Part shown: one piece after another, positions 23,735-30,145 of the stretch
How the letters are laid out: every line of letters starts with the position of its first letter
Position numbering within the stretch: position 1 is the first letter of the stretch
From: Leptolyngbya sp. 'hensonii'
GTDB lineage: Bacteria; Cyanobacteriota; Cyanobacteriia; GCF-001939115
Direction: 5' to 3'
Length of the DNA: 64,000 bases
Assembly (NCBI RefSeq): GCF_001939115.1
Contig: NZ_MQTZ01000043.1
Coordinates: 124,001 to 188,000, forward strand
Position numbers and translations under genes: made by a program
The notes under the pieces: generated by a model
What the model was told of the DNA's origin: nothing
The model's database searches: none
Seen by the model: the letters and a program-made list of their open reading frames with translations, nothing else

Positions 23735-25129
23735 TTAATGACTTGTCATAAGGCGGCTCCACCAGGGACGATGCAGCCCCTGTAACCGTTGTCCCTCCAG
23801 AACGAGCTGTCGCAGTAGATCCGATCGCTGGGAAATCACAGCCCCCGTTGCGATCGTCCCCAGCTTCGACCGCTGCCGCAGGGCCAAGGCGATCGGGCCG
23901 ATCAGATCACTGGCCCCTGTCCCGACAATCTGGGCTCCGACCAGGGTGCCATTGCGCCGCAACAGGAGCTTGCCAAAGCCGGTGGTATCCCCAGAGAATT
24001 GGGCCTGCTCCAGGGCATGCAGGGATTGCTGCACCACGAGCAGATCCTTGCCGTAACGTTGCTGTGCCTCTGGTTCAGTCAGCCCCACTGCTGCCAGTTC
24101 CGGATCCGTGGGCACAATGCGGGGAATTCCCGTCGGATCAAACCGGGCGATCGGCCAGAACAGGGCATTCCGAACCACGATCGTTGTCTGTTCCAGAGCC
24201 ATCTGAGGGACAGGATACCCTGCCCGATCGTCCCGACAGACATAGATCCGGGGCTGGCTCGTCTGCAGTTTCCGGTTCAGGCGCAGGCCCTGCTGGTCCT
24301 GGACCACCCCCACTGCTGGCAGATTCAGGCTGTCCAGATTCAGCCGATAGCCCCCATCCACTAACAGAAGTTCGGCCTGGATGGTTTGCCCTCCCACCTG
24401 GATTTCCTGGGCTCCGGCTAGGGACCGTACCTGGTCGATCGGCTGTCCTGTTAAAATTCGCACCCCTTCAACTTCCAGTTGCGCTTGCAGTAACCGGGTG
24501 GCTTCCCGGTCTTCTCCCGGCAGCAAGTGGGGGGCATCAGTGACCACCGTCACTGAGGTGCCCAACCGGACCAACCCCTGGGCCAGTTGTAACCCGATCG
24601 GACCATCACCGACGATCGCCACCTTTTGAGGCTGTTCCGTCAGGGTGCAGGGATCATCCACCGTCAGACAGGCCGAGGGGGTCAGTCCCGGAATTGCCGG
24701 GATCTGGGGCCGGGCAGGCATAGCCACCAGATACGCAGAGGCCATCAGGGGCCGATCGGCTACTGCCAGCACAGGCCGAGCCTGGGGGAGAAACTCGCCC
24801 ATCCCCATCACCACATCCACCCCCAGCGCCGCCAGCACTGCCGGAGCGTCTACTGCCCGCAGATTCGTCACTACCCGTTGAGTCCAGGCCAGGATCTCAG
24901 CCCAGGAAAGGGGTGCTGCTGTGGTTCCATGCCAGTAGGTGCTCCGCCGATCGACGGTGCCGATTTCAGCCAGGATCCGCCCCACCTGGGCCAACGTTAG
25001 CCCAGCGATCGGCTCGATCCCCTGGGTGACTAGAGCCACCCTGCCCCCCAGAGCTATCCCCTGACGGGCCGCCTGGACACCAGCCTGACTGGCTCCGATG
25101 ATGACTAGATCGTATTGATCTCTAGTCAT
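23735..25129 (-). CDS. Pyridine nucleotide-disulfide oxidoreductase-like flavoprotein lacking the redox disulfide
   Basis: A 464-residue protein with the fold order of the lipoamide dehydrogenase/mercuric reductase family: an N-terminal FAD-binding motif (VIIGASQAG), a central NAD(P)-binding motif (VAIVGDGPIGLQLA, about 180), a second FAD segment (IYVCRDDRAG) and a C-terminal dimerisation domain. The CX4C redox pair expected near residue 45 is replaced by GLTLAQVGRILAEIG, and the C-terminal His-Glu dyad (HPTLSE-like) is absent. It therefore cannot act as a classical disulfide reductase; electron transfer through FAD alone remains possible. It begins six bases after the porin stop, so the two genes form an operon. 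Confidence 0.85.
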   Translation of the reverse strand: MTRDQYDLVIIGASQAGVQAARQGIALGGRVALVTQGIEPIAGLTLAQVGRILAEIGTVDRRSTYWHGTTAAPLSWAEILAWTQRVVTNLRAVDAPAVLAALGVDVVMGMGEFLPQARPVLAVADRPLMASAYLVAMPARPQIPAIPGLTPSACLTVDDPCTLTEQPQKVAIVGDGPIGLQLAQGLVRLGTSVTVVTDAPHLLPGEDREATRLLQAQLEVEGVRILTGQPIDQVRSLAGAQEIQVGGQTIQAELLLVDGGYRLNLDSLNLPAVGVVQDQQGLRLNRKLQTSQPRIYVCRDDRAGYPVPQMALEQTTIVVRNALFWPIARFDPTGIPRIVPTDPELAAVGLTEPEAQQRYGKDLLVVQQSLHALEQAQFSGDTTGFGKLLLRRNGTLVGAQIVGTGASDLIGPIALALRQRSKLGTIATGAVISQRSDLLRQLVLEGQRLQGLHRPWWSRLMTSH

Positions 25130-26926: not shown

Positions 26927-27116
26927 CTCGAAATACTGCTGTCTACAATGCCTCCAGCAGTATTACTAATACGCTACTGCCAGCAAAAATGGATTTTGGT
27001 CGGGCAAATCATAACAAAACTCTAAATTCCGCTCGAAGTATCGTAGTTTGTATAAAAATGGGAGATCGCGATCAACCTGTGATCCAGCAGGAATTTCCTC
27101 CTCAGGAGACTTAGAC

Positions 27117-29453
27117 ATGACCCAACCCGGCTTAACTTGGAAAACTGTTCTAGCAGATAAAATCCCGCCAACCATGGCAGAAGAGATTGATACCTTCGAA
27201 ACCCAGATGAAGCTGCGTCGTCAAGGGAAGCTAGATGAAAAGGTATTTGCCGAGTTACGGCTGCGTCGGGGTGCTTATGGGCAGCGGTACGATAATGGCT
27301 TTCGCCATGATGGTGAAAAGTCTCAAACCATTCCTTTCCCCCATCCAGCCCTGACCAAAGGACCGGAGACGAAGTGGGAAGCCCCCGGTATGCAGCGGAT
27401 TAAGATTCCCTATGGGGGAATGACCGCTGACCAGATGGAAGTCCTGGCAGATGTGGCTGAGGAATACGCAGACTGCATTCTCCATGTCACGACCCGCCAG
27501 GATTTCCAACTCCACTTTATCTCGCTGGATGATACCCCTGACATGCATCGCCGTCTCGCTGCCGTGGGCATCACCACCCGTGAAGCCTGTGGTAACTCTG
27601 TGCGTAATGTCACGGCCTGTCCCCTGGCTGGAGTCTGTCGGGATGAAGCCTTCGATGTGACGGGATATGCGGGCGAAACCACCCAATACTTCCTGGGACA
27701 TCGGGATGTACAGGATTTTGGTCGTAAGTTTAAAATTGCTTTCTCCGGTTGCAAGCAACATCCCTGTGGGTTGACTTCCATGCATGACCTGGGCCTAATT
27801 GCCACAACCCGAATGGTGGATGGGGTGGAGAGGCAAGGCTTTGAAGTGTATGTGGGGGGTGGACTGGGAGCCGTGCCACATTTGGCCAAACTGCTGGATG
27901 ACTTTGTGCCAACGGAAGAGCTCTTGCCCCTGTCCCAGGCGATCGCTCGCGTCTATGCTCGTCTGGGTGAGAAGAAAAACCGTAACAAGGCCCGGATTAA
28001 GTTTTTGGTCGCAAAATTGGGGATTGAGGAGTTTCGCCGTCTGGTGAAAGAGGAGCGGGCAATTCTGGAGCCAGATCCAGGCTGGGCGGAATGGATTCCT
28101 GAGTTACCCTCCTACGACGAGTCTGGCCTGCCGGAACCCGTTTCTGCCGGTCAGGCGATCGATCTGGAAGCAGATGCCATTGCCTTTGCCCAGTGGAAAT
28201 CCACCAACATCTACCCTCAGCGGCAGGCAGGGTTTGTCTGTGTGACGATCTCCTTGCCGCTGGGAGACCTCACCTCACAGCAGATGCGGGGTCTGGCAGA
28301 TATTGCCCGTCGCTTTACCCGCGATACCACCCGCACCACGGTGGAGCAGAATATTCTCCTGCGCTGGATCCATGAAGCTGATCTGCCTGCTCTCTATCTG
28401 GCACTGAAGGCCATCAACCTGCATGCGGCAGGGGCTGAATCGATCGTGGATATCACGGCCTGCCCCGGCACCGACACCTGCAAACTGGGAATTGCCAGTT
28501 CGCGCGGTCTGGCGGGTGAGTTACGCCAGCGACTGGCCGTCAAGGGTTGGCAGTATAACGAAGCGGTTAAGGACATTCGGATTAAGGCCAGCGGCTGTTT
28601 TAACTCCTGCAGCCAGCACATGGTGGCCGAGATCGGCTTCTATGGGTCGAATCGGCTCGTCGATCGGCGGCGGGTGCCCCACTTCCACCTGATTTTGGGG
28701 GGCGAATGGGACAACAATGCGGCTCAGTATGGCCAATCCCTGGGGGTTGTGCCGTCAAAGCGGGTTCCCGATGTGGTGGAATTCCTGGTGGACCTGTTCC
28801 TGAAGGATCGTCAGAAGGGGGAAAAGTTCTCCCAGTTTGTCCATCGGATTGGGAAGAAGGACATCAAGGAGCGTCTGGCTCCTTTCTTGGAAATTCCGGC
28901 CTATGCGGTGGACAAGTCCTTCTACAGGGATTGGGGCGATACCCGTGAGTTCACGATCGGAGACATTGGCGTAGGCGAATGTGCGGGTGAAGTGGTCAGT
29001 CTGACTGATTTTGGGGTCGCCACGGCTGAAAGTCTCTACTTTGATGCCACCCTCTTGCTGGAAGGGAATAGCAGCAATGGCAATGTGAAACAGGCCGCTG
29101 AAAAAGCACTGGAAGCCATGATCAGTGCTGCTCAGGCTCTACTGAAAGTCCAGAATATCGATATTTCCAAGGATCCTGAAGTAGTGGTCAGGGAGTTCCG
29201 CAAATACTTCTACGACACCGAGCTGTTCTACGATCCGTTTGCCAAAGGTAAGTTTGCCAGCTATCTGTTCCAGGCTTATGACCAGCGTGATCGGGCGGTT
29301 GATCTGGATCAGGCCAGACAACTGATCGAAGAAGCCCGCCTGTTTATTGAAGCGGCCCATGAGTGTAATACACGCATGTTACAGGCTGGAATTACCAGTC
29401 CGGCGAGCTTCCAGAAGTGGCTCCTCGATCGCCAGATGCAACAATCGTCCTAA
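27117..29453 (+). CDS. Nitrite/sulfite reductase family protein with C-terminal extension
   Basis: A 778-residue siroheme [4Fe-4S] reductase-family protein, far longer than the usual NirA (about 510). The start at 27117 is chosen for its AGGAG at 27103-27107; the frame is open to 27048. The C-terminal core has Cys449, Cys455, Cys494 and Cys498, the spacing of the cluster cysteines in E. coli sulfite reductase. The N-terminal half also has a quartet, Cys168, Cys174, Cys212 and Cys217. After about residue 620 comes a helical extension of roughly 150 residues (AEKALEAMISAAQALL...), possibly HEPN-like. It should reduce nitrite, sulfite or a related oxyanion; which one is unknown. It is divergent from a porin and followed by a small conserved gene. 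Confidence 0.88.
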   Translation: MTQPGLTWKTVLADKIPPTMAEEIDTFETQMKLRRQGKLDEKVFAELRLRRGAYGQRYDNGFRHDGEKSQTIPFPHPALTKGPETKWEAPGMQRIKIPYGGMTADQMEVLADVAEEYADCILHVTTRQDFQLHFISLDDTPDMHRRLAAVGITTREACGNSVRNVTACPLAGVCRDEAFDVTGYAGETTQYFLGHRDVQDFGRKFKIAFSGCKQHPCGLTSMHDLGLIATTRMVDGVERQGFEVYVGGGLGAVPHLAKLLDDFVPTEELLPLSQAIARVYARLGEKKNRNKARIKFLVAKLGIEEFRRLVKEERAILEPDPGWAEWIPELPSYDESGLPEPVSAGQAIDLEADAIAFAQWKSTNIYPQRQAGFVCVTISLPLGDLTSQQMRGLADIARRFTRDTTRTTVEQNILLRWIHEADLPALYLALKAINLHAAGAESIVDITACPGTDTCKLGIASSRGLAGELRQRLAVKGWQYNEAVKDIRIKASGCFNSCSQHMVAEIGFYGSNRLVDRRRVPHFHLILGGEWDNNAAQYGQSLGVVPSKRVPDVVEFLVDLFLKDRQKGEKFSQFVHRIGKKDIKERLAPFLEIPAYAVDKSFYRDWGDTREFTIGDIGVGECAGEVVSLTDFGVATAESLYFDATLLLEGNSSNGNVKQAAEKALEAMISAAQALLKVQNIDISKDPEVVVREFRKYFYDTELFYDPFAKGKFASYLFQAYDQRDRAVDLDQARQLIEEARLFIEAAHECNTRMLQAGITSPASFQKWLLDRQMQQSS

Positions 29454-29494: not shown

Positions 29495-29517
29495 CCCCTC
29501 TTCCATCGGGAGAGGGG
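29495..29517. repeat. C-rich/G-rich hairpin between reductase and partner gene
   Basis: CCCCTCT (29495-29501) pairs with AGAGGGG (29511-29517), enclosed by an outer CCTGA/TCAGG pair. It resembles dispersed palindromes between cyanobacterial genes and could be a processing site between two co-transcribed genes. Confidence 0.45.
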
Positions 29518-29578
29518 ATCAGGCTTATGAAACCCTACACAATGCCCACCCACCCATTTTTCAAGTATGGAGAACCCC

Positions 29579-30145
29579 ATGAACCCCGATCGCTTCTGTA
29601 TCAAATTCTTTGCTCGACCTGGAAACACGATTGATGAAGCGATCTTGATTGAGATTTTTCAGGAATGGATTCGCCTGCGTAAATTGCCAGGGACATTGCT
29701 GGATGTAGCAGATTACCGCCATGTTCCCAATGGCCCTGGCGTTATGCTGATTACCCATGAAGTGAATTACGCCATGGATCATAGTGAGGGTGAATTTGGC
29801 CTTTATGCTCAGTTGAAGCTGGGGCAGGGCGAAACTCATCAGGAACGGATGTTGGCACTGGTCAAGGCAACAGCAATCTTTGGGGCTTTGCTGGAATCCG
29901 ACAAACGGGTGGCCGGTCAGTTTAGCCTGGATGGCAGTCAGTTCCTTTATCTGGCCAACGATCGCCTGCAACTTCCCAATACAGAAGCAGCCTTTACTGC
30001 CCTGAAGCCGGATCTGGAGGCCGTAGCCGCTAAACTGTATCCCGGTCAGGAGACAACGGTAACCCGGCGGGAGAATGATTCCCGCGATCGTCTGACTGTG
30101 GTGATTCAAGCGCAAGGCCTGTGTGACATCAGTGCCCTGGCTTAG
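29579..30145 (+). CDS. Conserved protein of unknown function beside the reductase
   Basis: A 188-residue soluble protein that I do not recognise. It begins MNPDRFCIKFFARPG; the ATG at 29579 is preferred over one at 29567 because GGAG at 29569-29572 is correctly spaced. It has no signal peptide and no obvious metal or nucleotide motif; its two cysteines are one near each end. Predicted mixed alpha/beta with a long stretch VPNGPGVMLITHEVNYAMD. Its position 125 bases after the reductase, same strand, suggests a linked role such as assembly or regulation, but this is inference. Confidence 0.75.
   Translation: MNPDRFCIKFFARPGNTIDEAILIEIFQEWIRLRKLPGTLLDVADYRHVPNGPGVMLITHEVNYAMDHSEGEFGLYAQLKLGQGETHQERMLALVKATAIFGALLESDKRVAGQFSLDGSQFLYLANDRLQLPNTEAAFTALKPDLEAVAAKLYPGQETTVTRRENDSRDRLTVVIQAQGLCDISALA

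Follow-up and report, generated by a model that had tools for sequence, protein, structure and literature searches.

Do fused assimilatory sulfite reductases always give up one of the two sites that they started with? These enzymes have been explained as a duplicated and fused reductase that keeps one of two siroheme-cluster sites (PMC10229431). In the window (the whole 64,000-nucleotide stretch of Leptolyngbya sp. 'hensonii' DNA that was analysed), the gene at 27117..29453 raises this question, because a first-pass annotation had read from it one protein with a cysteine quartet in each half. We asked whether both quartets are conserved, what a second site would do, and which step of metabolism the enzyme would serve.

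Two cysteine quartets in one fused chain

The gene (27117..29453, plus strand, stop codon included) starts at an ATG preceded by the ribosome-binding site AGGAG (27104..27108, plus strand) and encodes a 778-aa protein of the fused siroheme sulfite/nitrite-reductase type. Pfam domains PF01077 and PF03460 were each found in two stretches (E 1e-52 and 2e-39), giving the two NIR_SIR_ferr plus NIR_SIR repeats in one chain that characterize fused aSir/NirA-type enzymes. The N-terminal half covers residues ∼88–320 (27378..28076, plus strand; PF03460/PF01077 and mapping to Escherichia coli CysI) and the C-terminal half residues ∼366–600 (28212..28916, plus strand; Pfam and alignment). None of the NCBIfam equivalog models reached its cutoff, and the protein was therefore placed with the siroheme reductases outside the named subfamilies. 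It is not a member of TIGR02042 (ferredoxin Sir; 115 bits vs. a cutoff of 731.5), and it scored below the cutoffs of PRK09566 and PRK09567 (ferredoxin NirA; 261 of 523 and 219 of 594 bits). The dsrA and dsrB models gave 35 of 393 and 44 of 342 bits, and a single gene is present where DsrAB would have two.

By sequence and by predicted fold, the closest solved relative is Mycobacterium tuberculosis NirA (PDB 1zj8). The AlphaFold model, built from 12 alignment rows, was of low confidence (pLDDT 63, pTM 0.48) and poor at both cysteine loops, and it served for fold matches only. Residues 93–229 of the N-half matched Fsr (7np8) by sequence (E 1.6e-11), and residues 92–319 of this low-confidence model were superimposed on 7np8 with Z 15.8 and an rmsd of 9.6 Å over 198 residues (VIA-align). 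The quartet stretch alone picked out Fsr and DsrA weakly.

The C-half quartet, Cys449, Cys455, Cys494 and Cys498 (CX5C-X38-CX3C; 28461..28610, plus strand), aligns with Cys434/440/479/483 of E. coli SiR (CysI) and is the canonical catalytic cluster site; the 778-aa frame and the E. coli spacing are as the first-pass annotation had them. Its claim of a similarly spaced N-half quartet also held. Cys168, Cys174, Cys212 and Cys217 (CX5C-X37-CX4C; 27618..27767, plus strand) differ in spacing only by one additional residue at the end (CX4C vs. CX3C). When the profiles of the two halves were aligned (hhalign probability 99.6, E 5e-23, 24% identity), C168 paired with C449, C174 with C455, C212 with C494 and C217 with C498, all four in register.

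All eight cysteines were invariant in 75 distinct sequences (116 aligned proteins) from cyanobacteria, Gemmatimonadota, Myxococcota and Latescibacterota. Two further cysteines, Cys158 and Cys622, are conserved in the double-quartet proteins. Among the nearest relatives of these proteins the N-half quartet is missing or incomplete in most, and the alignment revealed no full N-half quartet in NirA, CobG, CysI/Sir, or in the alphaproteobacterial, Bacteroidota and several Myxococcota relatives. The more distant L116 and L117 have an N-half with CX5C plus CX3C, and in Thermus oshimai two of the four cysteines remain. Since the halves are in register, the 75 homologues invariant and most close relatives devoid of it, the N-half quartet is not a chance arrangement. 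The 778-aa protein departs here from the fused aSir/NirA enzymes described so far, with one siroheme-cluster site and the N-half quartet lost, a loss that is typical of them and arguably not defining. A lone Cys occupies the Cys212 column in several cyanobacterial NirA proteins (L002, L017, L020, L021, L027, L052 and L053); L053, the Microseira NirA, is a 645-aa ORF with a C-terminus ∼110 aa longer than that of other cyanobacterial NirA.

Beyond the reductase core, ∼150 extra helical residues had been reported. The region is indeed helical, but it is larger than reported (residues ∼594–778). Residues 626–756 (28992..29384, plus strand) resemble a HEPN domain: the match to 2hsb had a TMt of 0.72 (Foldseek) and a Z of 15.0, with 2.9 Å over 118 residues (VIA-align), and several other HEPN chains matched with Z 8–12.5. 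The R741/H748 pair (R-X6-H, within the HEPN motif R-X4-6-H) is not kept in the Gemmatimonadota homologues, so that ribonuclease activity is not expected. The C-terminal extension was also present in Bacteroidota relatives without the second quartet, and the idea that it belongs to a second cluster was dropped for this reason. Cys622 (28980..28982, plus strand) lies in a GECAG motif and is kept in 74 of the 75 homologues. The motif sits after the reductase core, is also kept in single-quartet relatives, and forms the end of the protein in Thermus (L080) and in L150, and so its cysteine may serve as a functional tail at the C-terminus.

A downstream partner gene and the replacement of Sir

Downstream of the reductase gene, positions 29579..30145 (plus strand) encode a 188-aa protein of an undescribed family, which we term the partner on the basis of profile searches and co-occurrence. 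An ATG at 29567 is also in frame, and homologues and an upstream GGAG favour the start at 29579. The partner had no match in Pfam or NCBIfam. Its predicted model (pLDDT 90.8) matched nothing below E 0.001 in Foldseek, and all VIA Z scores stayed below 8; matches to coproheme decarboxylase/chlorite dismutase were weak and were not taken as evidence. An inverted repeat (CCCCTCTTCC...GGGAGAGGGG, window 29496–29520) lies between the two genes.

Profile searches detected a partner homologue adjoining 70 of the 75 double-quartet genes and none beside single-quartet relatives. For three loci at which no neighbouring copy was detected, the partner is encoded elsewhere in the same genome; in G172, a distant double-quartet genome, the one homologue is weak and lies on a different contig. 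Counted by genome, the partner and the double-quartet enzyme had identical distributions: they shared the same 8 of 291 cyanobacterial genomes and, in the phylum sample around the Myxococcales locus, the same 26 of 141. Where a genome had single-quartet relatives alone, the partner was not found; G235, in which the enzyme has lost the N-half cysteines, is one such genome. These data show statistically that the partner is linked to the N-half quartet. The G235 enzyme (L149) lies near the double-quartet clade; its N-half cysteines are replaced by A/E/T/H, and the longer loop is kept. Several Myxococcota encode the partner with a rhodanese domain fused at its C-terminus (L048:6162-7082, L127, L133, L135, L136, L137 and L143).

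The first-pass annotation had proposed a search for a standard nirA and a standard sir in the same genome; a standard NirA was present and a standard sulfite reductase absent. The PF01077 proteins of this genome are NirA, a CobG-like protein, whose gene adjoins an apparent precorrin methyltransferase gene, and the 778-aa protein, with no others. The same pattern was observed across the cyanobacteria. The double-quartet protein occurred in 8 of 291 genomes, the TIGR02042 Sir was missing from 13, and all 8 carriers were among these 13 (hypergeometric P 1.1e-12). Because the samples include draft and metagenome-assembled genomes, single absences are weak, and the pattern rests on the counts. Three Microseira-type genomes outside the 291-genome sample (L036, Microseira wollei, G146; G600; G601) hold both Sir and the double-quartet enzyme, possibly as a transitional state. 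Strict mutual exclusion was therefore dropped; the replacement of Sir, though strong, has exceptions.

PAPS reductase was found in all 16 carriers tested, and the related single-quartet gene of Thermus sits in a sulfate-assimilation and siroheme cluster. Together with the replacement of Sir, these gene contexts make assimilatory sulfite reduction by far the best candidate role for the 778-aa protein. A FAD-dependent pyridine nucleotide-disulfide oxidoreductase is encoded nearby (window 23735–25129); it is MerA/lipoamide-dehydrogenase-like and below all cutoffs shown.

Origin and chemistry of the second site

In the published scheme, aSirs arose by duplication and fusion followed by loss of one site (PMC10229431). 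We built a tree of the separated halves from which the cysteine columns had been removed. N-halves and C-halves formed two clades (100/100), which matches the two half-groups expected from one duplication and fusion. In both half-trees the deepest split was between CysI/Sir, NirA and CobG and the branch with the double-quartet family, and the quartet states were scattered within that branch.

The N-half quartet could have been gained anew within the double-quartet family. It is absent from NirA, CobG, Sir and CysI, and a single gain was not rejected when all quartet-bearing rows were constrained to one clade (AU p 0.094). We nevertheless regard a late gain as rather doubtful, since any duplicated homodimer begins with both quartets, and the full quartets of L115, L116 and L117, the partial one of Thermus L080 and the lost one of L149, with its longer loop kept, look like repeated decay. 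For the first of these reasons, retention with repeated loss is the simpler chemical story. As judged from these alignments and trees, the second quartet probably goes back to the homodimeric ancestor of fused sulfite reductases, and the double-quartet enzyme has the look of an early version of a key sulfur enzyme that has survived.

The catalytic site was located by alignment to E. coli. CysI R83, R117, R153, K215 and K217 correspond to R94, R127, R163, K204 and K206 of the 778-aa protein, and these five residues are invariant. R94, R163, K204 and K206 supply the Arg-Arg-Lys-Lys set of a sulfite-type active site. Position 206 is Lys, as in sulfite reductases, vs. Asn in NirA, and is the equivalent of the tobacco NiR position changed in N226K (PDB 3vlx). 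The C-half counterparts (T377, E410, V444, D486 and R488) are mostly neutral or acidic, and most of them vary. In Fsr, four positive residues bind the substrate, and the positive residues of one protomer anchor the siroheme of a site to which the other protomer gives the cluster (PMC10229431). A second substrate-reducing site is unlikely because the C-half counterparts lack a conserved basic cage. The earlier proposal of two clusters in one chain, DsrAB-like, is retained in part: the register of the halves, the invariance of the N-half quartet across several phyla and the partner that tracks it argue for a second cluster, whereas a site without an Arg/Lys cage is probably not a second catalytic one. 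We infer that the N-half quartet binds a second cluster, the favoured occupant of the second site, whether or not a non-catalytic tetrapyrrole accompanies it as in DsrA.

On these grounds we consider it likely that the protein is an assimilatory fused sulfite reductase with both cluster sites kept, one catalytic and the other an electron-relay or structural [4Fe-4S] site, working with an obligate partner. Sulfite would be reduced at one siroheme-[4Fe-4S] site, where R94, R127, R163, K204 and K206 of the N-half would hold siroheme and substrate and Cys449/455/494/498 of the C-half the catalytic cluster. Cys168/174/212/217 would build the pseudo-symmetric second site, most likely with another [4Fe-4S] cluster, and this site, its C-half partners being without a basic cage, would not be a substrate site. 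During the six-electron reaction the second centre may relay or store electrons, or it may be structural, comparable to the inactive DsrA site. The 188-aa downstream protein would be its putative obligate partner, as a subunit, a docking factor or an assembly factor. More tentatively, and with less likelihood, the chain may have kept two siroheme-[4Fe-4S] centres, one of them non-catalytic, since the duplication and fusion, with the dedicated partner serving the second centre.

That the N-half quartet instead binds zinc, or serves in redox chemistry or sulfur handling through disulfides, appears improbable. The spacing of the fourth N-half cysteine is off by one residue, Cys158 and Cys622 are conserved in the same proteins, and the partner-rhodanese fusions of some Myxococcota hint at sulfur transfer; but the four cysteines stand exactly at the pseudo-symmetric ligand positions, which neither zinc nor disulfides would need. 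Very unlikely is a chain with two full siroheme-[4Fe-4S] reductase sites, as in the Fsr homodimer. Both quartets are intact, and each Fsr protomer has a functional site, with one half anchoring the siroheme and the other giving the cluster (PMC10229431), but T377, E410, V444, D486 and R488 leave the second site without a conserved substrate cage. Hardly more can be said for an enzyme that is chiefly a nitrite reductase: relatives are annotated as nitrite/sulfite reductase and nitrite is also a substrate of many sulfite reductases (PMC10229431), but its own genome already has NirA, position 206 is Lys rather than Asn, and the enzyme is found where Sir is missing.

Taken together, (i) two intact cluster motifs, (ii) a partner gene and (iii) a patchy distribution over several phyla define a new variant of the fused assimilatory sulfite reductase; no description of HEPN-fused or two-quartet sulfite reductases was found in the open-access library searched. 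The scheme of duplication, fusion and loss becomes directly testable with a widespread clade in which both cysteine sets are intact, and the carriers include Picosynechococcus, a laboratory cyanobacterium in culture. The family also lends itself to asking how a second cluster that appears non-catalytic contributes to a six-electron reduction, and it brings to light a partner protein family that is new.

Comparison with known systems

The M. tuberculosis NirA/SirA-type enzyme (1zj8) shares with the 778-aa protein the two-half architecture, the C-half quartet and the EACG context of Cys158, but its 566-residue chain has neither an N-half quartet nor a HEPN-like domain. On the same branch of the family as the 778-aa protein are the 'nitrite/sulfite reductase' proteins of Aureibacter (L081) and Persicobacter (L084), from Bacteroidota and related bacteria. 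They have the C-terminal extension and GECAG, but their N-half cysteines are replaced by Ser/Asp/His and no partner gene is adjacent. The cyanobacterial Sir (TIGR02042) has the two fused halves, the C-half quartet and the presumed pathway step in common with the 778-aa protein; it differs in its single quartet, and the 778-aa protein stands in for it in nearly all carriers.

With regard to the number of sites, Fsr (PDB 7np8 and 7npa) has one quartet per half-sized unit, and therefore two per functional dimer, and is the system that the N-half resembles most. In contrast, Fsr is unfused and homomeric, carries F420H2 oxidase and ferredoxin domains, and is active at both sites (PMC10229431). In DsrAB, too, each pseudo-symmetric unit has two siroheme-cluster sites, of which one is inactive (PMC10229431). 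It is, however, encoded by two genes, has extra ferredoxin domains and a DsrB catalytic cluster motif CXnCCX3C, and its similarity to the 778-aa protein is weak.
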